From Polytrichum commune (Eukaryota; Streptophyta; Polytrichopsida; Polytrichales; Polytrichaceae), in NCBI GenBank assembly GCA_950295325.1, contig OX485804.1:11842001-11906000 (forward strand): a stretch of 64,000 nucleotides of DNA, read 5' to 3'. The position numbers and the translations under genes were made by a program. Below, one piece after another: positions 1 through 54,870 of the stretch (position 1 is the first letter of the stretch; the number at the start of each line of letters is the position of its first letter). Under the pieces are notes generated by a model that was given only the letters and a program-made list of their open reading frames with translations, was not told where the DNA came from and did not search any database.

Positions 1-3000
1 CAAACTCACTTCACACTTAAATCAGATTCAGGCCTAATCACAACCTTATCAACTTATAACCCAATTGATTTCACACTTAAGTCAACCCACTTAATACCCT
101 TGTCTAGGGTGTCTAGGGAGCGAGACACATTTTTTTGAACAAACCTAACTTTCGGAAATTTGATTTCAGGCCTTATATCAGCGTTTCCAACTTCACACTC
201 AAATCAGATTTCAGGCCTAACAACATTATTACCAACATCCAATTCAAACTCACTTCACACTTAAGGTTGATTTCAAGCCTAACAAAGACCTTACCAACAT
301 CCTACCCTAACTGATTTCAATCATAATTCAGCCCAGTTAAGACCTCGTCCAGGGTGTCTCGGGACCGAGACACAATATTTTGAACAATTCAAATTTCAGG
401 CCTAATCACAACCTAAGAAACATATAACCCAAACTCACTTCACACTTAAATCAGATTCAGGCCTAATCACAACCTTATCAACTTCTAACCCAATTGATTT
501 CACACTTAAGTCAGCCCACTTAATACCCTTCTCAAGGGTGTCTCGGGACCGAGACACACTATTTTGAATAAAGCTAAAATTAAGAGATTTGATTTCAGGC
601 CTTATATGAGCCTTAACAACTTCACACTTAAATCAAATTCATGCCTAATCACAACCTAAGCTACATATAACCCAAACTCACTTCACACTTAAATCAGATT
701 CAGGCCTCATCACAACCTTATCAACTTCTAGCCCAATTGATTTCACACTTAAGTCAGCCCACTTAATACCCTTCTCAAGGGTGTGTCGGGACCGAGACAC
801 ACTATTTTGAATAACGCTAATATTAAGAGATTTGATTTCAGGCCTTATATGAGCCTTAACAACTTCAAACTTAAATCAGATTTCAGGCCTAATCACAACC
901 TAAGCTACATATAACCCAAACTCACTTCACACTTAAATCAAATTCAGGCCTAATCACAACCTTATCAACTTCTAGCCCAATTGATTTCACACTTAATTCA
1001 GCCCACTTAATACCCTTGTCTAGGGTGTCTCGGGACCGAGACACACTATTTTGAACAAATGTGAATTTCAAAAATTTGATTTCAGGCCTTATAGCATCCT
1101 TAACAACTTGACACTTAAACCAGATTTCAGGCCTAATCACAACCTAAGCAACATATAACCCAAACACACTTGACACTTAAATCAGATTTCAGGCCTAATC
1201 ACAACCTAAGCTACATATAACCCAAACTCACATCACACTTAAATCAGATTCAGGCCTAATCACAACCTTATCAACTTCTAGCCCAATTGATTTCACACTT
1301 AATTCAGCCCACTTAATACCCTTGTCTAGGATGTCTCGGGACCGAGACACACTATTTTGAACAAATATGAATTTCAAAAATTTGATTTTAGGCCTTATAG
1401 CATCCTTAACAACTTGACACTTAAACCAGATTTCAGGCCTAATCACAACCTAAGCAACATATAACCCAAACACACTTGACACTTAAATCATATTTCAGGC
1501 CTAATCACAACATAAGCAACATATAACCCAAACTCACATCACACTTAAATCAGATTCAGGCCTAATCACAACCTTATCAACTTCTAACCCAATTGATTTC
1601 ACATTTAAGTCAGCCCACTTAATACCCTTCTCTAGAGTGTCTCGGGACCGAGACACACTTTTTTGAACAGACCTAACTTTGGGAAAATTGATTTCAGGCT
1701 TTATATCGGCTTTACCAACTTCACACTCAAATCAGATTTCAGGCCTAATGACATTATTACCAACATCCAATTCAAACTCACTTCACACTTAAGGTTGATT
1801 TCAGGCATAACAAATACCTTACCAACAACCTACCCTAACTGATTTCATACATAATTCAGCCCAGTTAAGACCTTGTCCAGGGTGTCTCGGGACCGAGACA
1901 CACTATTTTGAACAATTCAAATTTCAGGCCTAAACACAACCTAAGCAACATATAACCCAACCTCACTTCACACTTATATCAGAGTCGGGCCTAATCACAA
2001 CCTTATCAACTTCTAATTTGAAATCACTTCACACTTAATTCAGCCTACATAAGACCCTTGTCTAGGGTGTCTCGGGACCGAGACACACTTTTTTGAACAA
2101 AGATGACTTACAGAAATTTGATTTCAGGCCTTATGTCAGCCTTAACAACTTCAAACTTAAATCAGATTTCAGGCCTAATCACAACCTAAGCAACATATAA
2201 CCCAAGTTCACTTCACACTTAAATCAGATGCAGGCCTAATCACAACCTTATCATCTTCTAACCCAATTGATTTCACACCGAAGTCAGCCCACTTAATGCC
2301 CTTGTGTAGGGTGTCTCGGGACCGAGACACACTATTTTGAACAAATGTGAGTTTCAAAAATTTGATTTCAGGCCTTATAGCAGCCTTAACAACTTGACAC
2401 TTAAACCAGATTTCAGGCTTAATCACAACCTAAGCAACATATAACCCAAACACACTTGACACTTAAATCAGATTTCAGGCCTAATCACAACCTTATCAAC
2501 ATATAACCCAAACTCACTTGACACATAAAACAAATTCAAGCCTAATCACAACCATAGCAACATCTAACCCAATTGATTTCACACTTACTTCAGCCCACTT
2601 AAGACCCTTGTCTAGGGTCCAAGACCGAGACACCCCTTATTGACCAAATCTTACTCTCAGAAATTTGATTTCAGGCCTACTAAACACCTTTACAACATGA
2701 CACTTAAATTTCACACTCACATCAGATTCAGGCCTATTCACAAGCTTACCAAAGTCTATCCATCACTCACTTCACACTTAAATCAGCTGTCGGGCATCAT
2801 CACAAGCTAAGCAAAAAATATCCCAAACTCAGTTCACACTTAGATCAGATTCAAGCCTAATCACAACCATAGCAACATCTATCCCAATTGATTTCACATT
2901 TAGTTCAGCCCACTTAGGACCCTTGTTGACCAAATCTTAATGGCAGAAATTTGATTTCAGGCCTAATCACAACCTAAGCAACATATAACCCAAACAGTTT

Positions 3001-3025
3001 TCAGGCCTCAAGACAAACAGATTAA
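1..3025. repeat. 61-bp-period minisatellite, array 1
   Basis: Degenerate tandem array. The common monomer contains CACACTTAAATCAGATTCAGG followed by CCTAATCACAACCTAAGCAA and is 61 bp long. Every few monomers a different, highly diverged pair (122 bp) carries GTGTCTCGGGACCGAGACAC, a 9-bp inverted repeat around a GA core. Good copies start at 354, 538, 1025, 1637, 1882, 2067 and 2311, with variants at 781 and 1331. Spacings of 184, 243, 244, 306, 306, 245, 185 and 244 bp are close to 3, 4 or 5 times 61. The array decays after about 2600 and runs off the left edge. The 70-72 codon ORFs in it are periodic artefacts. Confidence 0.93.
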
Positions 3026-3044
3026 ACGAATTGATTGGGAAGTA

Positions 3045-4818
3045 TTAACTCACTCCGGCCCAAAAGCACGCCTTAGCTAGAAATGCACCCAGTTTCTCCT
3101 CGTTGGTGGGCTTAGGGGGCAGTTTGCGGGCCTCACGTGTAGATGCAGAGGAGTTTAAATATTCCAACCATTTAACCTTAGAAGCGGCCGATGCTTTTGC
3201 AGTAACGATCAACTGCAATTTCTCCATATTGAGCTCGGGTGTAATTGAGTTAAGACTATAGTGACGTCCAATCTGTAAAACATATAGCTATTTATTAGAA
3301 TCTCAGGGGTCATTAAAGATCATGAAGATTGAAAAATGTGCTTGTAAAGTAGAGTTTATACCTCTCGAAGCCATCCATCCGTCAAGTCCGGGTTTGACAG
3401 AGCAACTAGTTTCGACATTTTCTTATGAAGTGCCTTGGCTCTTTTCTTTGTAGCAACTTTCATAGCGGTTGTTTTTTCAGCGGCGGACACTTCTACATCT
3501 GATTGCTCCACAAGTTGTCGAACACCCTCATCTGCAGCAAGTCCAAGTTCATGCTGCACATGGGTAGACTTAGTTAGTCATCCAAGTATACTGTAACCTA
3601 GGTGATCATTTGATTTTAGATAATGACAATATGTTAGTGATTAAAACAATGCAGTACATATTATAGAGATCATACCCGGAAGATGAAGTTCGTGAATACT
3701 TGAAGATTCAATGTGTACCAAGTTTTTTTGGCATTTTGAGTTCTCTTGCACCTCTTCATCTCTGATGGAGTCAATATGTCTTGATAATGTTCGATTGGCA
3801 TAAGACCATACTTTTGAATCCTAAAAAGGGTGTGAACAAAGTTGGTCTTGACGTGAGAGTCTTCAGTATGCTTGCAATTATCAATAAAAAAGGGCGGATT
3901 AGCACATGACATTAATGGTATAACAAGAAGCATTTTACATAGAAAGAAATACAAATTAATTAACAAAACTTACTTGTTGATGTTATGCATCACTTGCATA
4001 ACAACCCCAACTTTGTCTTTTGTGTCAAGTAGGATGCTATCCACCATATAATGTCAGGCCTCATCTGTTTTGTGAAGTCTTTCAATATGATTTAACCATG
4101 CCTTACGCCTATGGTTACCGTCACATACAAAGAACATCAAATCCTTGAAACCGGCTAACTCCGGAACAGACTGAAGATAGGAATTGAATTCTTCATTTTT
4201 TGAATTCCAAATGGGACCCCAGGATGCCTTATCAGCTTCAGACACCTCCTGTGTTTTGCCTTCTTCATCTGTTAATGTCACATAAAAAACTGAGGAGCCC
4301 TCTCTATACCCATGGACAAACTCCTGCTCCAATTTATCAAGATCAGTTGAGAGTGTTGGCCTCACCATAGGCATGGCAAGCATTCTACATAAAGGAATAT
4401 TGAACCTCGATGAACTGAAAGGTTTGACTCTCAATTGAGAGATCATGGCCACGGAATTCAATTTCTGACGGGATCTAAGTTCATCTTCATCATCGTCAAA
4501 CGTATCCTTATCTCCAAGCCCATCTTCATCCTCATCCTGACCTTCATCAGAACTGTCAAGATCAATTGCAGTCTCTCTTGAAGCTTGAGTCGCTGCCGGT
4601 GAAGCCGGTGCCGGTGAGTCCTGGGGGGTGGGGCACTCGACCTACAAAACACAGGTATGTATTTAAGACACAAAGCTGCATGGCATAATGTACAATTAAT
4701 TCATACATTATGTAACTACGTGAGTACTTACCTATTCCCCAACATTCTGCTCATCATGGTCCATGATGCCTTCAATAGCATTTGAAACGTAAGTTTCAAG
4801 ATCGGTAGCTCCCAAACT
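3045..4818 (-). pseudogene. Gene B, exons 4-8: ParB/sulfiredoxin-like DGNHR protein, decayed
   Basis: Minus-strand exon cluster with GT-AG borders: 4732-4818, 3974-4641, 3676-3870, 3362-3553 and 3045-3272 (stop TAA). The 4641 exon starts with a Pro/Ala-rich part, then an acidic Asp/Glu run, then a globular region. Near residue 346 of the proposed full protein it has F-V-C-D-G-N-H-R-R-K-A-W, which resembles the xDGxHRxxA motif of ParB/sulfiredoxin-fold proteins. The last two exons are Lys/Ala-rich and helical-looking. Damage: TGA at 4054-4056 (likely CGA, Arg), TAG as the last codon of exon 4732-4818 (likely CAG before GTAAGT), and the donor after Asn-Lys near 3974 reads AAGTAAGT where AAG|GTAAGT would keep frame, so one base seems lost. 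All other junctions are phase 0. The cluster is an island in the minisatellite. Probably the 3' part of the gene that starts at 14119. The function is inferred from one motif only. Confidence 0.7.
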
Positions 4819-4849
4819 CTGCGGAAAATCCAATGCTTAATTTTCCAAT

Positions 4850-5988
4850 TTTGATGTCAGGCCTAATCACAACCTTTCCAACAACCAACCCAAACTAAAC
4901 TCAAAGTCAAAAAATACGTTTTGGCATAATCAACATCTTGGCATATAAACTAAATTCACACTCAAATCAGATTTCAGGCCTAATTACAATCCAATAATCA
5001 TTTAACCAACAATGAAATTTCAGATTTCAACTCTAAGCACATTATAACCAACATCCAATTCAAATTCACTTCACAATTAAGGTTGATTTCTGGCCTAACT
5101 AAAACCTTACCAACATCCTAACCCAACTGATTTCACACATAATTCAGCCAACGAGACACCCTTGTCTCGGGTGTCTCGGGACCGAGACACACTATTTTGA
5201 ACAAATGTGACTTTCAAAAATTTGATTTCAGGCCTTATATCAGCATTGCCACCTTCACACTTAAATCAGATTTTAGGCCTAATCACATTATTGCCAACAT
5301 CATATTCAAACTCACTTCACACTTAAGGTTGATTTCTGGACTAACAAAACCCTTACCAACATCCTAATCCAACTGATTTCAAACATAGTTCAACCCAGTT
5401 AAGACCTTCTCTAGGGTCTCTGGGGACCGAGACACACTATTTTGAACAATTCAGATTTCAGGCCTACACACAACCTATGCAACATACAACCCAAACTCAC
5501 TTCACACTTAAATCATATTTATGCCTAATCACAATCTTATCGACTTCTAACCCAATTGATTTCACACTTAAGTCAGCACACTTAATACCCTTCTCAAGGG
5601 TGTCTCGGGACCGAGACACACTATTTTGAATAAAGCTAACATTAAGAGATTTGATTTCAGGCCTTACATGAGGCTTACCAACTTCACACTTAAATCAGAT
5701 TCAGGCCTAGTCACAACCTAAGCTACATATAACCAAAACTCACTTCACACTTAAATCAGATTCAGGCCTAATCACAACCTAAGCAACTTCTAACCCAATT
5801 GATTTCACGCTGAATTCAGCCCACTGAAGACCCTTGCCTCGGGTGTCTCGGGACCGAGACACACTATTTTGAATAAAGCTAACATGAAGAGATTTGATTT
5901 CAGGCCTTATATGAGGCTTCCCAACTTCACACTTAAATCAGATTCAGGCCTAGTCACAACCTAAGCTACATATAACCCAAACTCATCT
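4850..5988. repeat. 61-bp-period minisatellite, array 2, first segment
   Basis: Same family as array 1, with palindrome copies at 5171, 5600 and 5843 and a variant near 5416. It begins just upstream (in gene B orientation) of the exon starting at 4818, so it would sit inside an intron. It is cut at 5988 by an LTR-type insertion. Confidence 0.9.
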
Positions 5989-8854
5989 TGTGAACCCTTT
6001 GAGTGGTCCACCACTCTGCGGGATCACTTTTAGTTAGAATGTTAGCATTAAAAGTTAGAATTGATAGGGAATTTAGGAAAAATTAGTTCATTTAGCATTT
6101 AGCCTAGAAGAAGGAAGGTCAAAATGAAACTAAGTAGTGCTAGAAGATAGCAAAGTAGAAAAAATGTGCTAGCTAGTAAAAACAACTAGCTAAGCAAATA
6201 TTAGTAGATGCTAGCTATTAAGCAAATATTAGTAGATGCTAGTTATTAAGCAAATGTTAGTAGATGCTAGCTAAGCAAGTGTTAGTTTATTAGTTAGTGT
6301 GAGGCACACAAGACTATTGGAGGTGTTTTACGTAAGAAGATAAAATCGGCGTGAAGAATTTTGAAGACAAAAAAGAAAGAGAGCAAGGGGATACTTGCCC
6401 ACTTGCCCCCTTGCCAATTCGATGGCGGAAAAATTAGAAAGATTTCTAAAGGTTTTTTGTCGGAGCCACCTCGGCGAGAGGGTGGCAACCTCAACCGGGA
6501 AAACCCCCGAGCCAAAATTTCGGGAAAGGGTTTGAAAAATGGATCCGGTGGAGGAGGGGTCCAACCCTTTTGTGAGAGGGTTTAAAAACCCCTCCTTCCA
6601 CCTTGTAGCTCTCTCTCTTTCTCTAGTTTTTGGGCGAAGCCCTGCTTCAATGTAGTTAGGAAAAAATCCTTTAGCATGTATTCTCAATGGTCTAAAAGAA
6701 AGGCTTGAGAACCTCCTCTACTCTCTCTCTCCTAGTTAGGTTGTGTGTTTATTAACACACCAACAAAATTATTCCTTCTTTTGTAGAGGTAGGTTGGATG
6801 GTAGAGTTTTGAGTAGAGGCATTATAGACCTCATCTGCCAATGCCCTGAAGGCTTAGTTCAAAAGCTAGAACAAGATACTTATCATTTTTCTCTTAGAGA
6901 GATTTCATATAGCTATCCATAGCCGTTTCCCATTTGTGATTTGGTTGAGATGACAATTAGTTATGGATTTTCAAAGATGGAGTAGAAAAACTGGGTGGTC
7001 TTGTGGGTAGCGGCTGCTGGATCAGACCTGCGAGCCCAATAGGAATTTTAATTCTAAGAAATTATATTTTTCCCAAGTAGAACTGTTGTGTAGCTTTCCA
7101 AAATGGCTTAGAACATTTGATTTGAGCATGATTTGAATTAGATATGAATTGTGCAAGATGGGACACATAGTTTGAGAACTTTTGGTTGACTGCTGCATTA
7201 CAGAGGACCTGCTGGGTTCACTTCGGCTTACCTTTCTAATCACATATTTTTATCAAATACATATTTTTAATATCTCTCCAGGGTCATATAGAACGTTTGA
7301 TTTGACTAAGATTTGAATTAGATATGAATTGTTGAAGGCGAGATACATAGTTTAAGCCTTCTTGATTGACTGCTGTGTTACAAGGAGTCCGCTGAATTTC
7401 TATTAGCTTAACCTGCTGATGTCATAATTTTTCTAGTTAGAGCTTGTTCATAGCTTTCCAATGGTATAAGGAAAGCCTAGATCCAAGTAGTAAGGAATGT
7501 GCTATGAATTTTTGAAGTTAGAAGGTAGATAGGTGGGTTGGAAGGGTCGGTTGAATCGACCTCACACTTCCAACCCTCATAACTTTTGCATTTCTTATCC
7601 GATTAGAGTGATTTTTAGATCATTGGAAAGATAATTTGGTGCACTAAGTATAAATATTATGCTTAGGATTAAATTACAGGGCAGAATAACACTTTATATT
7701 TTAATTGTTAACTAAGGTACGCTTACTACCAAACTAGTTACAAAGAAGGAGGCACGGTCGACGCTCGGAAAGTGGAGCAAGGAAGGAGGTAGCGGCTCGG
7801 CCTACATCAAGCCCAAATCAACCGAGGAAAATTGAGGTAAATTAACTAACCTTAAGCCTTCCATTTAGGATTGGAGGGAGCACGGCTAAGGTACGCATCT
7901 CTAAACCCACTCACCTATCTCGTAAGGTCAAGTGGCTTGACCACTTGACCGCCAAGGGAGTACCCAATTCCATGGTTTTCGGGGCCCTGGGTATGTTTTG
8001 TGGTAGTAGCTTCATTTATTAGCAAGTTTCGTATGTGATAAGTCGGATTAATCACCGACACGACCACTCTGAATGTTGTTGGTGGAAAGGTGGGGTTAAT
8101 GACCCGCGAATCCACTATTATGTTGTTGGCCCCATAGATTGGGAGTAATGGCCCCAATTTATGAAGATTGCGCAACAGGTTGAACCTACAGGTCGCCCGT
8201 CACCCTGGTCCCATTGAGTTGCATTTCGTGGTCTATCCAGTGTAAACACATTTAACAATCAAAACATACAAAATAAATCGTAAACCCTTGTTGGGAAGAG
8301 ACCCGAGGTAAGGGGTGATGCCTAATATGTTAATGTAGTAAGTTAGGACGTGCAAACAAAAGTAAGTAATTAAAAAGGAATTTGTATGAAGGGTGGGACT
8401 TAGGCCAAGTTCCCCCGCTTAGAAAACTAAATAGAACTAAATAAAGAAATAGGAAGAATTGAATGGTCCATCAAATTGTCGTTATTCCGTTCGTTGAGTT
8501 AGGGTGGTATGAGTCACACCCGGTTGGGTGTATCAGAACCATCCCAATTCACAAATTAGGATTGCCTTGGTTTCAAGGCTGGTGCGTCTGCGCGTAGAAT
8601 AGGTTGTAGGTTACGGTTAGAACTAGATATGAAATTGGTTAGTGGAATTTAAAGCCACACTAGTAAAAAACTAAGGCCTAACCTCCGGAGGTACTACGAC
8701 GCATATTTAATCTCCCTTAAAAATCTAACTACTCACGTTATACACCTATCATCCGGGTTCGGCTTGGGCGCCTGCAAATGCAGGCCACCTTCACCGAAGG
8801 GCTTGTGTGATACTTTTAGGCTCCCTCGAAAGGGGGTGGCCCAAAAGTACCACA
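5989..8854. mobile_element. Solo LTR or very long LTR-type insertion, TSD CATCT
   Basis: The insertion starts TGTGAACCC and ends ACCACA, giving TG...CA termini flanked by a 5-bp duplication CATCT (5984-5988 and 8855-8859). No second copy of the 5' end is found inside, so it behaves as one LTR of about 2.87 kb. Contents: short tandem repeats of TTAGTAGATGCTAGCTATTA type (about 6180-6290), a TATA-like TTTAAAA in a GC-rich context near 6575 followed by CT-rich sequence, two diverged copies of a segment of about 185 bp (7080-7430), and a 3'-terminal imperfect hairpin (about 8808-8854). No protein domain is recognisable; short ORFs in it are not convincing. Strand is undetermined, though the TATA-like box suggests plus. 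Confidence 0.75.
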
Positions 8855-10300
8855 CATCTTCACACTTAAATCAGATTCAGGCCTCATCACAACGTTATCA
8901 ACTTCTAACCCAATTGATTTCACACTGAATTCAGACCACTGAAGACCCTTGCCTCGGGTGTCTCGGGACCGAGACACACTTTTTTGAACAAAGCTAACTT
9001 TAAAAGATTTGATTTCAGGCCTTATATGAGCCTTGCCAACTTCACACTTAAATCAGATTTTAGGCCTAATCACAACCTAAGCAACATAGAACCTAAGCTC
9101 ACTTCACACTTAAATCAGATTCAGGCCTCATCACAACCTTATCGACTTCTAACCCCAATCGATTTCACACTTAAGTCAACCCACTTAATACCCTTCTCAA
9201 GGGTGTCTCGGGACTGAGACACACTATTTTGAACAAATGTGACTTTCAAAAATTTGATTTCAGGCCTTATATCAGCTTTACCTACTTCAAACTTAAATCA
9301 GATTTTAGGCTTAATCACATTATTACCAACATCAAATTCAAACTCAATTCACACTTAAGGTTGATTTCAGGCCTAACAAAAACCTTACCAACATCCTAAC
9401 CCAACTGACTACAAATATTGTTCAACCCAGTTAAGACCTTCTGTAGGGTCTCTCAGGGACGAGACACACTATTTTGAACAATTCAGATTTCAGGCCTACA
9501 CACAACCTATGCAACATACAGCCCAAACTCACTTCACACTTAAATCAGATTCAAGCCTAATCACAACCTAAGCAACATATAACCCAAGCTCACTTCACAC
9601 TTAAATCAGATTCAGGCCTATTCACAACCTTATCGACTTCTAACCCAATTGATTTCACACTGAATTCAGCCCACTGAAGACCCTTGCCTCGGGTGTCTCG
9701 GGACCGAGACACACTTTTTTGAACAAAGCTAACTTTAAAAGATTTGATTTCAGGCCTTATATGAGCCTTGCCAACTTCACAATTAAATCAGATTCAGGCC
9801 TAATCACAACCTAAGCAAAATAGAACCTAAGCTCACTTCACACTTAAATCAGATTCAGGCCTCATCACAACCTTATCAACTTCTAACCCAATTGATTTCA
9901 CACTTAAGTCATCCCACTTAATACCCTTGTCTAGGGTGTCTCGGCACCGAGAGACACTATTTTGAACAAATGTGACTTTCAAAAATTTGATTTCAGGCCT
10001 TATATCGGATTTACCAACTTCACACTTAAATCAGATTTTAGGCCTAATCACATTATTACCAACATCAGATTCAAACTCAATTCACACTTAAGGTTGATTT
10101 CAGGCCTAACAAAAACCTTACCAACATCCTAACCCAACTGACTACAAATACTGTTCAACCCAGGTAAGACCTTCTCTAGGCTCTCTCGGGGCCGAGACAC
10201 ACTATTTTGAACAATTCACATTTCAGGCCTAATCAAAACCTAAGAAACATATAACCCAAACTCACTTCACACTTAAATCAGATTCAAGCCTAATCACAAC
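8855..10300. repeat. 61-bp-period minisatellite, array 2, second segment
   Basis: Continuation of the same array. Palindrome copies lie at 8958 and 9693, with variants near 9202, 9448, 9937 and 10181, again about 244 bp apart. If the preceding 2866-bp insertion and its 5-bp duplication are removed, the distance from the copy at 5843 to that at 8958 becomes 244 bp, so the phase is restored. Confidence 0.92.
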
Positions 10301-10743
10301 CAGAGCCCAACATTTTCCTTTCTAATTGCACCCATACCCAAACCATGCCCACCCATAGCATAACATGTGCGCACCCATGCCCACCCATGCCCACACATAG
10401 CATGACATGTGCCCACCCATGCCCACCTATGCTATTCAAATTGCGCCCATGTATTAAAAAATTATGTAATGTGTATTGTGTAATTGTGTAATTGTGCCCC
10501 ACCCATGCCCACCCATGCCCACCCATGAACAATAATATCGCAGCCATGCCCACCCATGCCCACCCATGAACAATAATATCGCAGCCATGCCCACCCATGC
10601 CCACCCATGAACAATAATAGCGTAGCCATGCCCACCCATGCCCGCCCATGAACAATAATATTGCACCCATGCCCACCCAAAACCCATGGGCATGGGTGGG
10701 CATGGGCATGGGCATGGGTATGGGCGCCCAATGTAGGGCTCTG
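10301..10743. mobile_element. hAT-type MITE with CCCATG-rich core, copy 1
   Basis: Ends are CAGAGCCCAACATT and its inverse AATGTAGGGCTCTG, imperfect terminal inverted repeats of about 14 bp with one mismatch. They are flanked by a perfect 8-bp duplication ATCACAAC (10293-10300 and 10744-10751), as expected for hAT elements. The interior is built from CCCATGCCCACC repeats and a unit of about 40 bp containing GAACAATAATATCGCAGC, present about three times. The ORFs of up to 152 codons across it (Met-Gly-Trp-Ala-rich in the reverse frames) are simple-repeat artefacts. A second copy lies at 61834-62197. Confidence 0.9.
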
Positions 10744-13260
10744 ATCACAACCTAAGCAACATATATCCCAAGCTCACTTCACACTTAAATCAGATTCAGG
10801 CCTATTCACAACCTTATCGACTTCTAACCCAATCGATTTCACACTTAAGTCAGCCCACTTAATACCCTTCTCAAGGGTGTCTCGGGACCGAGACACACTA
10901 TTTTGAACAAAGCTAACATTAAGAGATTTGATTTCAGGCCTTATATGAGGTTTACCAACTTGACACTTAAATCAGATTCAGGCCTAATCACAACCTAAGC
11001 TACATATAACCCAAACTCATCTTCACACTTAAATCAGATTCAGGCCTATTCACAACCTTATCGACTTCTAACCCAATTGATTTCACACTGAATTCAGCCC
11101 ACTAAAGACCCTTGCCTCGGGTGTCTCGGGACCGAGACACACTTTTTTGAACAAAGCTAACTTTAAAAGATTTGATTTCAGGCCTTATATGAGCCTTGCC
11201 AACTTCACAATTAAATCAGATTCAGGCCTAATCACAACCTAAGCAAAATAGAACCTAAGCTCACTTCACACTTAAATCAGATTTAGGCCTCATCACAACC
11301 TTATCAACTTCTAACCCAATTGATTTCGCACTTAAGTCAACCCACTTAATACCCTTGTCTAGGGTGTCTCGGACCGAGAGACACTATTTTGAACAAATGT
11401 GACTTTCAAAAATTTGATTTCAGGCCTTATATCGGATTTACCAACTTCACACTTAAATCAGATTTTAGGCTTAATCACATTATTACCAACATCAAATTCA
11501 AACTCAATTCACACTTAAGGTTGATTTCAGGCCTAACAAAAACCTTACCAACATCCTAACCCAACTGACTACAAATATTGTTCAACCCAGTTAAGACCTT
11601 CTCTAGGCTCTCTCGGGGCCGAGACACACTATTTTGAACAATTCAGATTTCAGGCCTACACACAACCTATGCAACATACAACCCAAACTCACTTCACACT
11701 TAAATCAGATTCAAGCCTAATCACAACCTTAGCAACATATATCCCAAGCTCACTTCACACTTAAATCAGATTCAGGCCTATTCACAACCTTATCGACTTC
11801 TAACCCAATCGATTTCACACTTAAGTCAGCCCACTTAATACCCTTGTCTAGTGTGTCTCGGGACCGAGAGACACTATTTTGAACAAATGTGACTTTAAAA
11901 AATTTGATTTCAGGCCTTATATCAGCTTTACCAACTTCAAACTTAAATCAGATTTTAGGCCTACTCACAACCTAAGCTACATATAACCCAAACTCACTTC
12001 ACACTTAAATCAGATTCAGGCCTAATCACAACCTTATTAACATACAACCCAAACTCACTTCACACTTAAATCAGATTCAAGCCTAATCACAACCTAAGCA
12101 ACATATAAACCAACCTCACTTCACACTTAAAACAGATTCATGCCTAATCACAACCATTTCGACTTCTAACCCAATTGATTTCACACTTAAGTCAGCCCAC
12201 TTAATACCCTTCTCAAGGGTGTCTCGGGACCGAGACACACTATTTTGAACAAAGCTAACATTAAGAGATTTGATTTCAGGCCTTATATGAGCCTTACCAA
12301 CTTCACACTTAAATTAGATTCAGGCATAATCACAACCTAAGCAACATATAACCCAAGTTCACTTCACACTTAAATCAGATTCAGGCCTAATCACAACCTT
12401 ATCGACTTCTACTCCAATTGATTTCACACTGAAGTCATCCCACTCATTACCCTTGTCTAGGGTGTCTCGGGACCGAGACACACTTTTTTGAACAAACCTA
12501 ACTTTCGGAAATTTGATTTCAAGCCTTATATCAGCTTGCCAACTTCACACTTAAATCAGATTTCAGGCCTTATCAGATTATTACCAACATATGATTCAAA
12601 ATCACTTCACACTTAAGGTTGATTTCAGGCCTACCAGAAACCTCAACAACATTATACCTAAACTGATTTCACACATAATTCAACCCAGTTAATACCTTCT
12701 CTAGGGTCTCTCGGGACCGAGACACACTATTTTGAACAATTCAGATTCAGGCCTAATCACAACCTATGCTACATATAACCCCAGCTCATTTCACTTTTAA
12801 TTCAGATTCACGCCTAATCACAACATAAGCTACATATAACCCAAACTCACTTCACACTTAAATCGGATTCAGGCCTAGTCACAACCTAAGCAACTTCTAA
12901 CCCAAATGATTTCACACCCATAGCAGATTTCGGGCCAGAGCAACATCTAACCAACACTGAATTCACACTCACCTCAGATTCAAGCCTAATCACAACGTTA
13001 TCAACTTCTAACCTTGCCTCACTTCACACTCACATCAGATTTCGGGCCTATTCATAACCTATGCAACATCAAACCAACACTGAATTGACACCCACATCAG
13101 ATTCATGCCTTATCACAACCTTATTGACTTCTAACCTAAACTAAATTCACACTCACATCAGATTCAGGTCTAATCACAACCTTACCTAAGTGTACCCTAA
13201 ACTCACTTCACACTCAATTCAGCCCACGTTAGACCCCCCCAAAGGGTATCTCGGAACCCT
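10744..13260. repeat. 61-bp-period minisatellite, array 2, third segment
   Basis: Palindrome copies lie at 10877, 11121, 12219 and 12462, with variants near 11365, 11609, 11850 and 12708. Monomers after about 12900 are strongly diverged, and the array fades out at about 13260, just before gene B exon 3 (in gene orientation). Removing the 443-bp MITE and one TSD makes the spacing 10181 to 10877 equal 245 bp. Confidence 0.92.
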
Positions 13261-13434
13261 GACACACTTTGGAGAATAATGCTGGCTTTCAGAAATCTGA
13301 TTTCAGGACCGATAGCCACAAGTGGCAAGTGGCGCTCTACCTAAAATTCTCTCTCAGGTATCCAAAAATATGGCTCGGGTCTCCAACTGTCTCTCTTCGA
13401 ACCCTACATCAGAAACCAGATTCAAGGAGCCTAC

Positions 13435-14119
13435 CTCTTCCTCGAATTGCATCTCGTCATTATCCATGGTCCCTTCGCAAAGGTCAGCTGCGTCCCGATC
13501 AAAATCTCCGAGTCCCTGTTCAGTGAATAAACTATTTTCGTTGGATAGAAACATTACCCTAATCCGAAAACCATAAAAGTCACCAATTGAAAACAATCTT
13601 CACAAACCTGTTGCTCACTATGATCCGATGTTGAGGCACTCGAGGCTGCCCCAGGTTGAAGTTGTGTCTGTGTCATTCCCTATTCCAGATGCCCAATCCA
13701 AATCCTATTTACATTCCATCACCAAAAATAAAAACAACATAATAGAAAGCTATTGGGTCTCTACTGTTCTAATTATCCGTGAGAGTGGTTCACATTACGT
13801 TTTTGAAGAAAACAATATCATGAGGATTTTTGATAAACAACACCTCACTGCCCCCTTTGTCATCTGGGTTGTCTTCCTCCGTTACTGGAAATAAAACGAT
13901 GGGAGCTACCGCTTCAACATCAAACGTTTTTTCCCCTTTGGAACCTCTACCTGTACCCTTAGAAGAAGTAACCCCTCTTCTACCCATTGTTGTCCGCAAA
14001 TTGTACGGCGTCCCTAAGCTTTCTCTTGATTCTAACCTTTGCCTTCTCTCAATTCGCCTCTGTTTCTCACTATTCCTCCTTACTTCTTGTTCTGCTCTTG
14101 CTCTCGACCTAGTGTTCAT
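13435..14119 (-). CDS. Gene B, exons 1-3: basic N-terminus of the DGNHR protein
   Basis: ATG at 14117-14119. Exons 13844-14119 (92 codons), 13608-13679 (24) and 13435-13515 (27) all join in phase 0 with GT donors and AG acceptors. Exon 1 is very basic (Arg/Glu-rich, M-N-T-R-S-R-A-R-A-E start) and could be a coiled or nucleic-acid-binding tail. Exon 2 is Gln/Ser-rich and exon 3 is acidic (ends F-E-E-E). A TATA-like box lies 29-36 bp upstream. No further exon fits before the minisatellite. The next phase-0 acceptor in the same orientation is at 4818, so these exons probably continue into the 3045-4818 cluster through an intron of about 8.6 kb. That join is inference and needs RNA evidence. No known family is recognised in this part alone. 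Confidence 0.6.
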
Positions 14120-14147
14120 CTCTAACAAACATCTGGAGCAAACACAT

Positions 14148-14155
14148 CTTATATA
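14148..14155 (-). promoter_or_regulatory. TATA-like box of gene B
   Basis: TATATAAG on the minus strand, about 30 bp before the ATG at 14119. The implied 5' UTR is very short. Confidence 0.45.
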
Positions 14156-14180
14156 TCATTTTCAAGTCTGTCAGAATTAA

Positions 14181-14470
14181 CATCTATGCGCCATCGTTAT
14201 GTTCACATTTTCTTGTATTTAGATAGTTAATCTGCAGTTACTTAAAGTGATCCTTTGTTAATCCACCCTGCATTCATACACTACAAAATCCTTTTCTACA
14301 TAATCGTATCCTTCCATGTCAGATAATTTCGTGGTGATAAAGGGATGACTACTATTGTAGTACATTCTATTCATACATGAAACAGGTTGTCCATAATTTA
14401 CATAAATAACTATTGACTATTAATTGATCTATCAGGTTATCTAATATTCGGGCATTGCTGTCTACCCTAG
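14181..14470. promoter_or_regulatory. Divergent intergenic region between genes B and C
   Basis: AT-rich spacer between two divergent TATA-like boxes. I see no repeat or ORF in it. It would hold the shared upstream control region of the minus-strand and plus-strand genes. Confidence 0.35.
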
Positions 14471-14473
14471 GTG

Positions 14474-14480
14474 TATATAA
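14474..14480 (+). promoter_or_regulatory. TATA-like box of gene C
   Basis: TATATAA followed by an ATG at 14534, 54 bp downstream. The spacing suits a pol II core promoter. Confidence 0.45.
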
Positions 14481-14533
14481 TACCCGATTACTTGTACCCA
14501 TTCCTTCATCTCATCTCATCATATTCTTCTCCA

Positions 14534-14962
14534 ATGGGTACTGACTCAAGTCTCCCGAGCCTTGCTCCTTTAGGTGCTCCTAGTTCATCACAAATCCACA
14601 CCACATTGTCGATTGATGGTTTTCCAGACGTCAACAACATGAAGATTCCAAACCCACCTTACTGCTCAGTTACTCCGGCGGTCGCAGTTCAGAGTCCACA
14701 TCCCGGAACTCCATCTTTGCAGACGGATGTTGCAACGCTGATAGAGGACAAGTCTACTTTACAGACTCATGCCTATTCTAGAGTAGGGGTTATTAAACCG
14801 GGCACTTACTCTAGATCTCTATTAAGGCAGGCCCCACGTCCCCAAGGTCAGGGACTCGGTTGCGCAGGATGCACTGCAGTTCATAGTTTAGGGATTGACC
14901 ATTGTCATAAACATGACGGTGACAAAAATGGCAAAGGGCCCCATAAGCGTCTTCGTCGTTAA
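14534..14962 (+). CDS. Gene C: small Cys/His-rich basic protein (unknown)
   Basis: 142-codon ORF from M-G-T-D-S-S to TAA. I chose the ATG at 14534 because it lies 54 bp after a TATA-like box; the frame is open for some 60 bp more upstream. The N-terminal two thirds are Pro/Ser/Thr-rich and low in structure. The C-terminus has C-A-G-C-T-A-V-H, then D-H-C-H-K-H, then a basic tail G-P-H-K-R-L-R-R that could be a nuclear localisation signal. The Cys/His spacing would allow one metal site. No family is recognised. It lies head-to-head with gene B and upstream of the transposase on the same strand, so it may be an accessory protein of the same element, or a leader exon of the transposase if a splice site is used before its stop. 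Confidence 0.5.
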   Translation: MGTDSSLPSLAPLGAPSSSQIHTTLSIDGFPDVNNMKIPNPPYCSVTPAVAVQSPHPGTPSLQTDVATLIEDKSTLQTHAYSRVGVIKPGTYSRSLLRQAPRPQGQGLGCAGCTAVHSLGIDHCHKHDGDKNGKGPHKRLRR

Positions 14963-15275
14963 TCACAATGTAGCATTCTAATATTATTGCCAAGCTACTA
15001 TCATGCTCTCCACATTATTCTTGGCTGCCGTCATTCTTATGACCTTATTTGCCAATATATATTATAATCAACAATGTTTAGAATGTATGCCTGTTATTGG
15101 ATTGTACTATTTGATATGTATGCCTGTTATAGGATTCTACTATTCGGTTTCTTGCCTATCTCGGACTTGCATCCAAAATTGGTTTTTCAGCGGTCTTTCA
15201 GCTTGCTCTGCATGACTCTGAAATTCCGCTTGCTGGTACATAAATTACCAGATTGCACAGTAAATTCTTTCCTGT

Positions 15276-15283
15276 TATATATT
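15276..15283 (+). promoter_or_regulatory. TATA-like box of the MULE transposase gene
   Basis: TATATATT 55 bp before the ATG at 15338, the same geometry as for gene C. The spacer upstream also has two near-identical stretches of GTATGCCTGTTAT type near 15085-15145. Confidence 0.4.
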
Positions 15284-15337
15284 CTCTCCATTACAATGTT
15301 CAGAGTACTTGTTTTGTTCAGAGTTCAGTGGTTTAAT

Positions 15338-18300
15338 ATGGCCCTGCTTTGTGCTGAACCTCATTCTGTTCCGGTCCTCTTTCCATTAGGTGAAGACGGT
15401 CATGCTATAGTCACTTGTGCAACATTGAGTTTGAGGTTTCAATATCGTGAGGTCACTATCTTTGTCGAAGAAGAAGTTTTTGACGATCATACCGGTCTAC
15501 TTTCACATGCAATTCGTCAAACTAGGGTAGAGAATGACGTCGGTGCGTTCTGGTTGCTGAAGCCTGGAAAATATCGTGTATATGGAGTCTCAGAGTCTAT
15601 GTTAGAGTGTTCGACTGAACTTCTAACACCTAAGGAGTCGTCCACTGTTAGCATTGAGAGACCGGTCCTGGCTAGGGTCAAAATTGAGCCCGGTCTAAAT
15701 ACAATATATGAGTTGAGTGATGATTCCGACGGCGATGTTGAATTCCTAAAATCAGAGAGGAAAGTCCCAACTTCGCTCTCTCCACAAGTAGTTCGCAAGG
15801 AAACAACTCCTCCTGTTAGTCCGTCTCGTAATCCTGGTCAGTCCAATGTTGTGACAAGTCATGTTGTCAGTATCATTCATTCATTGATGCGCCTTGGAGC
15901 TCGTAAGCGGTCCAAAAGTGTGTTATCTCGAATTAACTTTGATGCGATCAGACTCCAGCAGGTTGATTACCTTCCCCCTTGTTACGATGGGGACGTTATC
16001 TTTGAATTTCCACCTTTAGGTGACCATGGCCAGAATACAAAGGCCAAGCTCCTTCGTGGAATGGATAGAAGGTACGATGGCCATGCTTGGTCTCGCACAA
16101 TTACAACCAATATTCAGAATGATCTCAAGCTTTTGTTTCGTACATCTTCTTGTTTGGGCCACCTCCGTTGCGACAATCCTGCTTGTGAGTATCTTCGGCG
16201 AGACCACAGGACTTCCCAAGTTAATGAAATAGAGTGGGAAGGATTATCTAAGAAATTGTTTGAAGTAGGGTCCAAGCCTCCAACTGGTTCGACCGTTGTT
16301 TGCAAATCATGTAACGTCCCTCCCACCTGTGTTGCTGTCTGCACTGCCAAGATCTACTATGTTACCGCGACACCTCACATGACGAGGGCTTGTGTGCACT
16401 TGGGATCTCACGACCATCCCGTCAAGTCATGTGATCATCGGGACTTCATCGATTTGACAAACACCTTGATTGGGGATCAAATCGAACGCACCCCCTCAGC
16501 CACTCGCTCCACTATTGTGCTTGAAACTGCAAAGGAAGTACTGGGCCCACTCCTCCTTGCTAAAGAATGTGACCCACAAAAGATCTTGGAGTTGGACGAG
16601 CTGCAAGTTATTTTCGATCGGTGTAAGCACCTCACCTCGCCCAACATTCGTAACGCAGTCACCACGTTCAGGACTATGCGTCGCTTTGGAGTCATGGACA
16701 GTATTACCAAGTTACGCGGTGCTAGCAATTGGAGGTTCGTGCAGCAGAATAGGTTTCCAGGGCAAGGAGCGGACATGGACAAGGTCTTTGTCTTCAAGAT
16801 GTCTGAAGTTGGACCGGGCAGCGGAGTCGACCTGGTCCAACGAATGCAACCCGGTGGTGACTTGGAGAACTCCTGAATAATGTTTGACCATGTCAAACGG
16901 GTCAGGTCGTGGACGACAATGGCTTGCCATGTGTACGATTCCACATATTGCCGTGTCATGACCATCGCAGTATGCGACATGCAGTCTGAAGATGTTGTAG
17001 CCCAGTCAGTCGTATGGAAGAACCTGAACGCTCTCATGGCTCAACATGGAGTGGACAAAGTCAATTTTAAAGGTTTCATGGCCGACAGTGCCCAAGCCAA
17101 CTGGAATGCTGTTCGAATCATATACGGAAGTGGGGATGCGTCTGAGAAGATGGTGGATAGAGAGAGGACTTGTTTTTTCCATTGGACGCAGTCCTTGGAG
17201 AAACATACCAAGGCCGATATCCGTCAAGACCTGCAACATCAGCATCGAATACTATGCCAGCAATACAAGAATGCGAAATCGATGGCGGAGGCCGAGACAA
17301 AGTATTTGGCAATTCAGGCATGGTGGATGTCATCCGGGGCAGCAACTGAACAAGGTCTACCTCGACTTGAGCTCTGGCTGGCCTTCTGGCATTTCCGTTA
17401 CCGCCAATGGGGTGGATTTATGGAGTTGGTAAGTCTATACTTCCCTCTATATTTCCTGTATAGTTCCCACTTTATGGTTCAACTACATTGATTCCACCAT
17501 TATTCTAATTCGGACTGTATGGGCATTGCAGGATCTAAGTGAAGCTGAACTAGCGGAAATGCCATCCTGTAACCTTGCTGAATCTATCCACAACAAGTGG
17601 AAGCAGCAATCTGGCGATCGGGGCAGCGACCTTTATGTGGCAACAATCGATAACTTCGTGCGTGCTTTCATGCAGTGCTCAGCATATTCCCAATTCCTAA
17701 AGGGAGAGAACCCTGGAACTGGACCGTCGAAGGAGGAATTGAAGTTGAGGCGTGCTCAGAGGTCTGCCGTAAAAACAGGAATCTCGAAACCGCTGCATGA
17801 GGCCATCTTGAAGATGCCTGGCGGTGACGAGTGGTGCACCAGGACTCCCCACCTCGAAGGGGAAGAGGTATTTGTTTCTCTGAAGCGTAAACCGGATACT
17901 GCTTTCGGTGACGAACGTGAATCTCACAGGCCAGACAAGATCAGTATATCCCGACCACGCGTCCAAACCAGATCTGCCCGACTGAACGATTCTCCACCTC
18001 CTGTGACAACTCCACATTCACCCACAACTGCAGATGAAGACCAACCGCAATTTCCAACACACGACGCTCCGCAGCAGGTGGATCGGCACCACGTCACCGC
18101 GATTGAGGAGACATTATGCAACCCTGCCCAGTGGCACATCGCACGGCTGCCTAAGACATCTGCGAAGGCTTGCTTTGCTCTACAAGCAATCACCAAGAAG
18201 AAGTGCGTCGCTCGGATTGTACAAGACGGGAAGAACACCGCTGCACCTACCTACTCAGGCCTCATGGATAACTATCGGAAGAAGAGATTGGACCTTCAAG

Positions 18301-18981
18301 ACTTCTTTTTCTGCAATGACGACATTGAGAGATGCGTTAAGGGTACAAAAAGGAGGTGGGTGGTCTCGGTCCCGAACGTTCCGGAGGTATGGCCGGTTAA
18401 GTTGGGGACCAACTTAACTTGCAAAGAGATCCTCTCTTTAGAAAACACAGGATTTAGACTGCCCCAGCGGAAGGAGATGACACCTTCCAGAATTTTTCAG
18501 GACCACCCGTTACCTTTGGACTTAGCAAGCTACACGACTCCTGCATATCCAGATGAGTTTCCCACCCGGCGTTCAGGGAAGTTGATTAGGCGCAACAAGA
18601 AAGCCCCGTCAACAAAAACACGCCAATAATTGTGCCTCAGCCCTATCACTGAAAGCCAAAGTGCACAAACTGTGCATGCTTCCAGCCCCTGCCTTAGGAT
18701 GCATCGTCTCCTTGGATTCCGGCACGCCCCCAAAGGTTCAGCAATACTACTTGACGATTTCGCAGCTGCCAGCATGCACTTGTCCTAACTTCAAGGACAT
18801 GGCGACTAAAGCAATTGGAAAAAAGGGTCAATGGGCCAACTGTAAGCATTTGTACTATTTGTTTACTGTAGTGTGTGGTTTGGACTCAGATTCAGACACG
18901 TTCATTCATGCAGCTAGTTTTAGCTTCAACGAAGTGAAGCGAGTTTTGGATGCTGGTTTATTGAAATACCTTGACTCTTAG
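15338..18981 (+). pseudogene. MULE (Mutator-like) DDE transposase with SWIM zinc finger, two lesions
   Basis: Exon 1 is 15338-17428, the intron 17429-17531 (GTAAGT...GCAG, 103 bp), exon 2 17532-18981; about 1,170 codons. Start chosen at M-A-L-L-C-A-E because it follows a TATA-like box; the frame is open to 15074. In order: an N-terminal domain of unknown type (1-110); a SUMO-consensus V-K-I-E (114-117) and an acidic hydrophobic patch; a Cys/His cluster at 278-365 (C278, C283, C322, C325, C331, C335, H347, C352 and others) like the WRKY-GCM1-type fingers of MULEs; the DDE core with V-Y-D-S (D534) and F-M-A-D-S (D583), then C-F-F-H-W and N-L-A-E-S-I-H-N-K-W; and a SWIM finger A-C-T-C-P-N...N-C-K-H-L-Y near 18775-18850. 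Lesions: TGA at 16874-16876 with the same frame continuing, and a frameshift near 18612-18627 in an A-run before the SWIM part. The SWIM plus DDE layout is typical of Mutator-like transposases; the N-terminal domain is not familiar. Confidence 0.82.
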
Positions 18982-18984
18982 AGT

Positions 18985-19445
18985 TTTCTGTTTCTTTAAA
19001 GAAACATATGTATGTAAGATTTGTTATAATCATGATGTAGTGAGACTAAAAGGGCCACTACAAGACATTTGACGCACCACATGTATTTCTCTTTCGTTGT
19101 TCCAAAGTTGCGTGACCTTTTTGGAGTACCACTAATTCTCCTTGTACTGAAACAGTACGTGTTTGACTTGAGACAAACCCATATTTATTACTGATATTAG
19201 TTCCAAATGTTCAATTTAAGCCCCTAAACCATATTTTTCACTGATACAATAACATTTTTTCCTATATCATAGCCCTTAATTGTCCACGGTCATAGGTCCC
19301 ACTGTTCACTAAATTTAGAAGAAAAAAATTACTTAAAATACATTTAGTCCAAATATACCCTAAACTTACTGCTTAAAATAACATTTTAATCAAAATATCG
19401 CGGAAGTTACCGCTCACCGCTCGCAAAATAGCTTCGTCCATGTTC
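18985..19445. other. Spacer after the MULE gene
   Basis: AT-rich and non-coding. It may hold the right terminal region of the MULE, but no matching left end is inside the window. A CACTACAAGAC at 19050 recalls CACTA ends, without a supporting partner or duplication. Confidence 0.4.
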
Positions 19446-20278
19446 AATTTGACAGGGATTCCACAGGACTTTGCATGCATCAAACTGAGTACACTCTAAG
19501 CATCCTCAGCCTCTTCAACATGGAGGATTGCACCCCATCCTTCACTCCTCTCCCAGAATGTTTGACACTGTCAAAGGACTCCGGTACCCCACCTGTCAAC
19601 GCCAAAATCTATGGGATGCTTGTTGGTAAGTTATTATTCCTTACCAAAACCCGCCCAGACATCGCTCATGCAGTAAGTGTTATCAGTAGGTTTATGCAGA
19701 ATCTCCAAGAAACCCACTTACAAGCAGCCAAACATGTTCTATGTTATGTGCGTCGCTACCCTGACCTACGCTTGTTTTACAAACAAGGGGAGGAGAATCA
19801 TCTTCATGGCTATACCAACGCAGACTACGGACAAGATGTTGATGACCGAATCTCTGTAGGGGCATACATTTTCTTTCTTGGCAATTCTCTTGTTTCCTGG
19901 AATTCCAAGAAACAGTCTAGCACTTCGAGGTCTTCATATGAATTTGAGTATAGAGCTCTTGCTCAGTGCTCGTGCGAAGCTGTATGGATCAGAAGACTGT
20001 TGGGCGAACTAAAAATCCTAGACAACAAACCGACTCATCTCTACTGCAACAATCAAAGCAGCATCAAACTTAGCTACAATCCAATGTTCAATGAGAAATC
20101 CAAACATTTTGAAATTGATTTTCACTTCACTCGACAGAAAGTCGAATATAACATCATCAAAATCGAGTTCATTCCCTCTCAAGAACAACCAGCCGACATC
20201 CTCACGAAATCGCTCGGCATGATCAAGTTTGAAGGTTGCAGGAAGCGACTTCACCTTCGCATCATCCTCAACTCTTAG
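19446..20278 (+). CDS. Copia (Ty1) pol, C-terminal RT and RNase H, 5'-truncated
   Basis: Open frame of about 275 codons to TAG at 20276-20278; the first in-frame ATG is at 19475 but the coding frame starts earlier. Hallmarks of the Copia RT/RNase H end: L-V-G-K-L-L-F-L-T-K-T-R-P-D-I-A, H-L-Q-A-A-K-H-V-L, G-Y-T-N-A-D-Y-G, S-W-N-S-K-K-Q-S-S-T-S-R-S-S, Y-C-N-N-Q-S-S-I-K-L, H-F-T-R-Q-K-V-E and Q-P-A-D-I-L-T-K. The RNase H aspartate in the Y-T-N-A-D-Y motif is kept, although the usual Asp before Ala-Asp is Asn. No stop interrupts it. Gag, protease, integrase and most of RT are missing, so the element is a 5'-truncated remnant. Confidence 0.95.
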
Positions 20279-35127: not shown

Positions 35128-35496
35128 AAATCATTTTTGCTCAACGAGAGATTGAGTTTTTGAGATATGTAGTGACAAATGAAGTTGGTGGACGAACATA
35201 AAGAATGTCAAGGCAATTCAAGAGGAGAATTGGCCCTTGATTAAAAAAGGGCTTAGGTCATTTGTTGGCCTAGCCAACTACTACCACCACTTCATTCGAG
35301 AGTTTTTGAAGGTTGCTAGGACCTTATTCAACTTATTGAGGAAATGGCTATCCCAAGAGTGGGATGAGCCTTGCCGCCAAGTCTTCGAGGAGCTTAAGAG
35401 CAAATTCTCTTCACCGCCCGTGCTCAAGTTCACGGAGTTTGACAAACCTTTTGAGGTGCATACGGGGGCGAGTGACTTTACCATTGGCGGATGTTA
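35128..35496 (+). pseudogene. Gypsy (Ty3) pol fragment, RT thumb to RNase H
   Basis: Contains I-F-A-Q-R-E-I-E-F-L, then after two in-frame stops L-R-S-F-V-G-L-A-N-Y-Y-H-H-F-I, E-E-L-K-S-K-F-S-S-P-P-V-L and P-F-E-V-H-T-G-A-S-D-F-T-I-G-G. These are the conserved RT/RNase H junction of Gypsy elements; the RNase H motif usually reads T-D-A-S-D, here T-G-A-S-D. Only this slice remains. Confidence 0.88.
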
Positions 35497-35845
35497 ATGC
35501 AAGATGGATGGCTATTGCATATGGGAGCATGAAGCTCGATGGTTGTCCGACCTTGTGAAAGAAATGGCTATCCCAGGAGTGGGATGATGCTTATCACCAA
35601 GTCTTTGGGGAGCTTAAGAGCAAGTTCTCTTCTTTGCCCGTACTCAAGTTCGCGGAGTTTGACAAATCTTTTGAGGTGCATACGAGGGCGAGTGACTTTA
35701 CCATTGGCGGATGTTAATGCAAGATGGATGGCCATTGCATATGGGAGCATGAAGCTCGATGGTTGTCCGACCTTGTCCGACTTGTGAAAGAAATGGCTAT
35801 CCCACGAATGGGATGATACTTGTCACCAAGTCTTTGGGGAGCTTG
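35341..35845. repeat. Tandem repeat of the Gypsy RNase H segment (2 full copies plus a partial)
   Basis: GAAATGGCTATCCCA recurs at 35341, 35561 and 35790, giving units of 220 and 229 bp. The third copy is cut after about 56 bp at GCTTGTGTCGCGCACC. Confidence 0.92.
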
Positions 35846-54142: not shown

Positions 54143-54870
54143 CACATAGATGCTCAATAACCGTATTCACTATTGAGCCTAGAATGGTTAATTTATTTTG
54201 AGCACTTAGTCTAGTTTCACTGTAACACGTATTTTCTTTGGGTATCTGTTCCTTGACATAAAGCGTGCAGACTTGCCATGTAGCACTGAAATATAGGACT
54301 CTGATTAAGAAATGAAAATGAAAAAAACACATAGATGCTCGATAATCGTATTCACTATTGAGCCTAGAATGGTTAATTTATTTTGAACACTTAGTCAAGT
54401 CTCACCGTAACACGTAGTTGTTTGGGTATCCGTTCCTTGACATAAAGCGCACAGAACTTGCCATAGAGCACTATAATTTAGGACTCCGATTAAGAAATGA
54501 AAATGAAAAAAACACATAGATGCTCGATAATCGTATTCACTATTGAGCCTATAATGTTTAATTTATTTGGAGCACTTAGTCTAGTCTCACCGTAACACTA
54601 TTTTGTTTGGGTATCCATTTCTTGACATAAAGTGTGTAGACATGCCATGTAGCACTAAAATTTAGGACTCCGATTAAAAAATGAAAATGACAAAAACACA
54701 TAGATGCTCAATAACTCTGTTCACTATTGAGCCTAGAATGGTTAACTTATTTTGAACACTTAGTCAAGTCTCACCGTAACACGTAGTTGTTTGGGTATCC
54801 GTTCCTTGACATAAAGCGCACAGAACTTGCCATAGAGCACTATAATTTAGGACCCCGATTAAGAAATGCA
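54143..54870. repeat. Tandem repeat, four units of about 185 bp
   Basis: CACATAGATGCTC(A/G)ATAA recurs at 54143, 54330, 54513 and 54697. Each unit contains CACTATTGAGCCTAGAATGG and TGACATAAAGCG. The units share words with the dispersed repeats at 46 kb and 53 kb. Confidence 0.92.

Follow-up and report, generated by a model that had tools for sequence, protein, structure and literature searches.

Putative protein-binding inverted repeats in the intron arrays of a Mutator-like transposon gene of Polytrichum commune

A 64,000-nucleotide stretch of the Polytrichum commune genome (assembly GCA_950295325.1, contig OX485804.1, C2:11842001-11906000; hereafter the window) contains the right-hand part of a large DNA transposon that carries a transposase gene and a second gene, gene B, in which two introns are filled with tandem arrays. 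Most arrays, though otherwise of differing sequence, were found to share a short inverted repeat (dyad), and we give a probability of about one in two to what we consider the most likely reading, that these arrays are putative binding sites of the element's own gene-B product, which would protect or regulate the element. This product is predicted to have ~1,290 residues and to join a ParB/sulfiredoxin-like domain to a degenerate N6/N4 DNA-methyltransferase-like domain. The genome searched comprised 408 Mb, and every comparison was made within this single genome.

Gene B and its intron arrays

Gene B lies on the minus strand from 14119 to -3066 (negative coordinates, genome position minus 11842000, lie left of the window) and consists of 14 exons, which sum to 3,876 bases or 1,292 codons. 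Since the exon boundaries were set from GT/AG together with comparison between copies, the splice-site count (donors GT in 13/13, acceptors AG in 12/13, the exception being exon 6 of the window copy) is not independent of the gene model. The phases close across the 1,292 codons except at the defects of the window copy named below.

13799-14119, minus strand: exon 1
13608-13667, minus strand: exon 2
13435-13515, minus strand: exon 3; donor GTAGG in the window and in 12/12 aligned copies
4819-13434, minus strand: intron 3, with a 61/245/306-bp array and 18 inverted-repeat sites
4732-4818, minus strand: exon 4, a duplicate of exon 3 that has since diverged; seen in family A and TAG-terminated in the window copy
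3974-4641, minus strand: exon 5, predicted ParB/sulfiredoxin-like domain; TGA at 4056-4054 in the window copy
3676-3871, minus strand: exon 6, entry phase 2; acceptor AA in the window, AG in 12/12 relatives
3362-3553, minus strand: exon 7
3054-3272, minus strand: exon 8
1-3053 and onward left of the window to -158, minus strand: intron 8, with a second array and 10 inverted-repeat sites
-159 to -394, -512 to -1208 and -1581 to -1928, minus strand: exons 9, 10 and 11
-2092 to -2365, -2474 to -2678 and -2775 to -3066, minus strand: exons 12, 13 and 14

An initial annotation of the window had proposed three phase-0 exons and five further exons on the same strand, together a gene of ~599 codons that a minisatellite had split. 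Exons 1-3 and 4-8 were recovered as proposed, as were the array based on 61 bp between exons 3 and 4, more of the same array left of exon 8, and two later insertions within the intron-3 array (5989-8854 and 10301-10743); an 8.6-kb repeat-filled intron in a mobile-element gene was thus borne out. The union of both clusters in one gene held as well; its length, and an end of the gene at exon 8 (3045-3054), did not. In other copies the arrays come to an end left of the window, and conserved exons lie beyond them; in the window copy these are exons 9-14. The array at 1-3053, taken for a repeat after the last exon, is intron 8 and not 3' flank, because these six exons come after it; the misreading had cut the gene short (608 of 1,292 codons). 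Nor had a donor lost a base: in 8/12 relatives exon 5 ends in phase 2, the other four (L004, L006, L009 and L012) having indels inside exon 5, and it is the exon-6 acceptor that differs in the window, AA against AG in 12/12. A recent split of the gene by the minisatellite is not supported either, because intron 3 consists to 32-94% of tandem array in 12/12 copies of families A and B (L001-L012). Copies without an array between exon 3 and exon 4 or 5 were looked for, and none was found among the copies read; the copy with the shortest gap, L008, was also arrayed.

The window copy itself is probably unable to make the whole gene-B product, because TAG ends its exon 4 (GAG in 6/6 close copies) and TGA stands within its exon 5 at 4056-4054 (TGG in 10/12 relatives, TGA in L006, TCG in L008). 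Exon 4 duplicates exon 3; its score was reached by 0/2,000 shuffles and by 0/346 in-frame windows of other exons. When the exon-4 peptide was searched against L007, L010, L011, L032-L035 and L024, the best match was exon 3 and a second exon of this kind was not found, while in L031 neither the exon-3 nor the exon-4 peptide was matched.

The linkage of exons 1-3 to the downstream exons was assessed across the genome. DNA searches with the exon-1-3 and exon-4-8 clusters gave 48 and 56 matches, respectively. We scored 40/135 candidates for the exon-1-3 cluster, 40/167 for the exon-4-8 cluster and 40/947 for the transposase, and in further searches 150/1,247 and 150/1,705 (the latter transposase relatives); as only part of the candidates was scored, all search counts are lower bounds. 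An exon-5 match on the same strand and downstream within 15 kb was present at 25/40 exon-1-3 places, compared with 1/40 for each of the other three placements, and within 60 kb 30/40 places were linked, compared with 3, 4 and 2. In compiling the 40 places, the two parts of one split match were merged and small matches at places already listed were omitted. The linkage count used all 150 exon-5 matches, and the distances a hand-picked subset of them: at the 30 linked places the gap from exon 3 to exon 5 ranged from 1.7 (L008) to 56 kb, the middle value being 4.9 kb; some of the longest gaps may bridge portions of separate copies. The linkage is far above chance.

It is highly improbable that exons 1-3 form one gene and exons 4-14 another, with the array as a spacer or promoter between them. 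Four of the copies read do lack exons 5-8 while retaining exons on the 5' and methyltransferase sides, and exon 3 of the window can be read onward into a short tail. Against two genes speak the order and strand maintained at 25/40 places, the phase-0 splice sites on either side of intron 3, and the exon-3 donor, past which families A and B diverge, yet which is itself kept in 12/12 copies.

Inverted-repeat sites in the arrays

Most arrays, despite their differing sequences, have in common a 20-bp inverted repeat, GTGTCTCGG-NN-CCGAGACAC. Its form GTCTCGG-N2-CCGAGAC was the commonest repeated inverted repeat with 7-bp arms in 12/12 copies of families A and B and in the window, and shuffled sequence (three copies, 20 shuffles each) never yielded the same repeat twice. 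In the 72 kb around the window, 28/28 sites (at most 4 mismatches) were located in introns 3 (18) and 8 (10), all in a single orientation. Genome-wide, the 14-bp core TCTCGGGACCGAGA had 757 matches, compared with 2 for the pattern reversed. Among the first 100 14-mer places listed, all on C1, 95 had a gene-B exon match within 10 kb; of the remaining five, three (C1:24742530, C1:37727981 and C1:39091866) stand isolated, away from listed gene-B exons, and may be chance matches or element remnants.

The site is conserved between families in which the surrounding array is not. Among families A, B1, B2, B3, C and E the 20-bp core agreed at 16-20/20 positions, while identity of the flanking array was only 21-52%. 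Part of the core identity results from selection of the sites, because the cross-family search admitted only near-symmetric sites that matched 7 of 8 core letters, which means that sites were chosen on 8/20 letters; the remaining 12 letters agreed at 8-12/12 positions. The consensus of family C was built from 4 sites and that of family E from 2. Family D, with the site GTTTCGG-NN-CCGAAAC, agreed with those families at 12-13/16 called positions, and its second array carries GAGGCCTCGGATCCGAGGCCTC. More distant families, recognised by their ParB exon and the stretch upstream of it, have other dyads: F2 has GTTTGGGTCG-NN-CGACCCAAAC, and F4 has ATTGGCGG-tg-CCGCCAAT.

With shuffles that preserve base composition only, an inverted repeat was matched by at most 1/60 shuffles in 16/34 element arrays, belonging to 7/10 families, and in 0/7 arrays outside the element. 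Two tandem arrays elsewhere in the window, at 35341-35844 (220 bp) and 54143-54868 (185 bp), had no significant inverted repeat. The dyad occurs about once per higher-order unit, with arms of 7-14 bp that in the clearest examples stand 0-2 bp apart, and all window sites point one way. A spacer of 0-2 bp is too short for a hairpin loop, and we therefore read the dyad as a DNA site fit for a dimer rather than as an RNA hairpin.

The arrays have turned over between families. Unit lengths (bp) were 61/245/306 in A, 234/301 in B1, 55/266 in B2, 65/140/204/214 in B3, 74/121/234/354 in C, and 46 and 129 in D. In the family C and D copies read, in which exon 5 is ~70% identical to that of family A, arrays lie between exons 1-2 and exon 5. 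The intron-8 array is lineage-specific and belongs to family A among the copies read, because intron 8 measures only 161, 172 and 155 bp in three copies of other families (L010, L007 and L031, respectively); L010 has a second array in intron 10 instead, with two weaker copies of the dyad site. In two copies, at C4:31.57 Mb and C4:52.50 Mb, exons 1-3 and an array are followed by exons 9-10, and exons 5-8 had no match there; recombination between the intron-3 and intron-8 arrays would be expected to leave this structure. Exons 5-8 are also lacking in L034 and L035, and in L034 exons 9-10 as well.

Predicted product of gene B and the surrounding element

For exon 5, an alignment of 18 sequences with identities down to 37% gave a structure model with a mean predicted local distance difference test (pLDDT) score of 73. 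In a Foldseek comparison with the PDB, 29 of the top 35 matches were named ParB, Noc, ParB-like PadC or sulfiredoxin, with probabilities up to 0.99; the remaining six were Atu1540 (4) and SbnI (2). As modelled, exon 5 looks to have a ParB/sulfiredoxin-like fold. A short PHROG ParB-like match (E 0.16) covered residues 161-188, the GNHRRQAW segment. Pfam scans of the pieces with exons 1, 3, 5 and 8 gave no useful assignment.

Joined exons 10-13 matched the Pfam family N6_N4_Mtase (PF01555) at 34 bits (cutoff 26.7; exon 12 alone scored 24.1, below the cutoff) and phage DNA methyltransferases of PHROG at 3.7e-8. The catalytic (D/N/S)PP(Y/F/W) motif is absent. As 9/9 sequences compared have D(L/I)P(E/Q)G in place of DPPY, methyltransferase activity of the gene-B product is doubted.

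Ratios of nonsynonymous to synonymous substitution (dN/dS) between families A and B were lower for exons 5-8 (0.16-0.20) than for exons 1-3 (0.25-0.58). Compared with family D, they were 0.06 for exons 5-8 and 0.08 for exons 9-12 (dS saturated) and 0.46 for exons 1-3. By this measure gene B has been under purifying selection between families. One mosaic copy (L007+L048, C4:45953700-45962900) was ~94-96% identical to the family A protein in exon 1 and exons 10-12 and ~67-88% in exons 5-9, which suggests recombination or gene conversion between families.

The features of the element outside the exons and introns of gene B are as follows.

1-19439, strand not assigned: right-hand part of the Mutator-like DNA transposon, which starts 4,528 bases left of the window (C2:11837472-11861439, ~24 kb)
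15068-18981, plus strand: transposase gene of the element, in several frames in the window copy; C-terminal CxC...CxH SWIM-like motif seen by eye
5989-8854, strand not assigned: later insertion with ends of long terminal repeat type (TG...CA); 5-bp duplication CATCT
10301-10743, strand not assigned: later insertion with hAT-like ends CAGAGCCC/GGGCTCTG; 8-bp duplication ATCACAAC

The element ends sharply at -4528 and 19439, where homology between copies also ends, with terminal inverted repeats of ~30 bp at both ends (GGGAAAA(G/A)CTATTTTGCGAGCGGTGAG and CTCACCGCTCGCAAAATAGCTTCGTCC). The target duplication was 10 bp in 4/4 copies read, within the range of 8-11 bp given for Mutator-like elements (MULEs) in PMC6446971. 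The length of its target duplication, its terminal repeats and the SWIM-like motif seen by eye assign the element to the Mutator superfamily, as a large Mutator-like transposon in which gene B is a second gene. The transposase had no Pfam match, and a model of its core, made from 3 sequences, reached a pLDDT of 38, too poor to judge the fold. Gene B is divergent from the transposase: 12 of the 40 transposase matches scored had an exon-1-3 match within 5 kb, and 12/12 were divergent. Frames of 2,300-2,500 residues in some relatives, considered as giant transposase fusions, were rejected on the one of three that was read, L055, in which the frame runs through N.

By eye, the element sits in a Ty1/copia-type pol frame (window 19440-20278 and left of -4528), with the duplication ATGTTCAATT on both sides. 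In another copy (L020+L003+L019, C6:35285500-35303000) the right flank looks like exon 10 of a different gene-B copy, so the element seems to have inserted into its own family. At 61894-62179 the window contains a second CCCACCCATG-rich tandem stretch, which resembles that in the hAT-like insertion.

Interpretation and comparison with known systems

ParB of bacterial partition systems acts at parS, and parS sites are dyads, as are the sites of the gene-B element. We propose that the gene-B product would bind the array dyads as a dimer in a ParB-parS-like manner, a proposal drawn from the precedents of the VANC arrays and of a bacterial ParB-adenine methylase described below. Binding would then mark or protect the chromatin of the element, an anti-silencing effect like that of VANC, or tune its expression, and the arrays would stay dense in introns, since changes in length are tolerated there. 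A fuller version of this proposal, which we put forward tentatively and at somewhat less than even odds, is a ParB-parS-like system of the transposon's own, in which the ParB-like/methyltransferase-like fusion binds the intron dyad arrays and sites and protein co-diversify, each family marking its own copies.

Several observations weigh against binding by the gene-B product. Many gene-B copies, including that of the window, contain stops, and within family A there is little sign of constraint (dN/dS for exons 1-3 of L001 0.97 on 9 changes; L005 0.43 and 0.51). The Foldseek E-values for exon 5 were weak, 0.028 at best and thus all above 0.001; among the 18 exon-5 members Pfam gave no ParB match, and 3/18 matched the phage tail-tube family Phage_tube_C instead (best E 0.00059), while PDB sequences searched with an exon-5 profile yielded no ParB. 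In the shuffle test, 18/34 element arrays missed 1/60, two of the seven control arrays reached 2/60, families C and F3 failed, and F1 gave an unrelated repeat at 2/60. Moreover, an inverted repeat could also persist because it promotes slippage.

This last point leads to an explanation without any protein, in which the arrays are ordinary intron minisatellites grown by slippage and the dyad is kept as a hairpin-prone destabiliser. The spread of intron 3 from 3.0 to 8.6 kb among family-A copies with exons 92-100% identical agrees with it, and so do the copies without exons 5-8, which are consistent with recombination between the two arrays. We nevertheless consider it unlikely, as slippage does not readily account for the same 20-bp core within arrays of 21-52% flank identity or for 28/28 sites around the window facing one way; the 0-2 bp between the arms leave too little room for a hairpin loop, and 0/7 outside arrays have such a repeat at 1/60 or below, although two do at 2/60. 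Alternatively, the element might exploit a host protein (an insulator, transcription factor or chromatin factor) that binds the dyads, with gene B acting elsewhere. The restriction of the sites to the element's introns in the 72 kb is compatible with a host factor; the quite different dyads of distant families, however, are more easily explained by co-evolution with a fast-changing element protein, and a host factor appears to us a rather slim prospect.

If an element protein binds these sites, the scheme of motif arrays and a matching accessory protein described for VANDAL elements would exist with a different protein, one fold-related to bacterial partition proteins. Growing target arrays inside introns could then be a general transposon strategy, and the filling of some introns with minisatellites would have a clear reason. 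As several families with different sites coexist in one genome, the matching of protein and site is directly testable. In the literature covered, we found no MULE described as carrying a ParB-methyltransferase gene, and an earlier description is possible.

The closest likeness is to the VANDAL elements of Arabidopsis and their VANC genes (PMC5735166 and PMC10398659). These are likewise Mutator-like elements with accessory genes and with dense, one-way tandem arrays of short motifs in noncoding parts, including accessory-gene introns (VANC21 and VANB21; PMC5735166), and motif and repeat vary by family in both systems (for VANDAL, PMC5735166 and PMC10398659). VANC proteins contain tandem peptide motifs (PMC5735166), and gene B resembles VANC in its repeated peptide segments and variable exon structure, exon 4 being a duplicate of exon 3. 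Subject to the MULE assignment, gene B is thus a MULE accessory gene with motif arrays in its introns, as VANC is, and by analogy it may have an anti-silencing role. The likeness is one of architecture. Gene B differs from VANC in being predicted ParB-like and methyltransferase-like. The motif differs too, being a dyad in the gene-B element and YAGTATTAY in VANDAL, and the VANDAL target duplication is given as 9 bp in PMC6446971, compared with 10 bp here.

For the domain combination, the nearest precedent is the bacterial Bce_0392, a ParB fused to an adenine methylase (PMC5512222), which has ParB/sulfiredoxin-like and amino-methyltransferase-like domains in one polypeptide, as predicted for gene B. 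Unlike the bacterial ParB-methylases, gene B is eukaryotic, multi-exon and carried in a transposon, lacks DPPY, and is accompanied by arrays of many sites. Among eukaryotic proteins, the N4CMT of bdelloid rotifers (PMC8885841) shares with gene B an N6_N4_Mtase domain in permuted order; N4CMT, however, is a host gene with SPPY, a chromodomain and demonstrated activity, whereas gene B is borne by the element and has D(L/I)P(E/Q) instead of SPPY.

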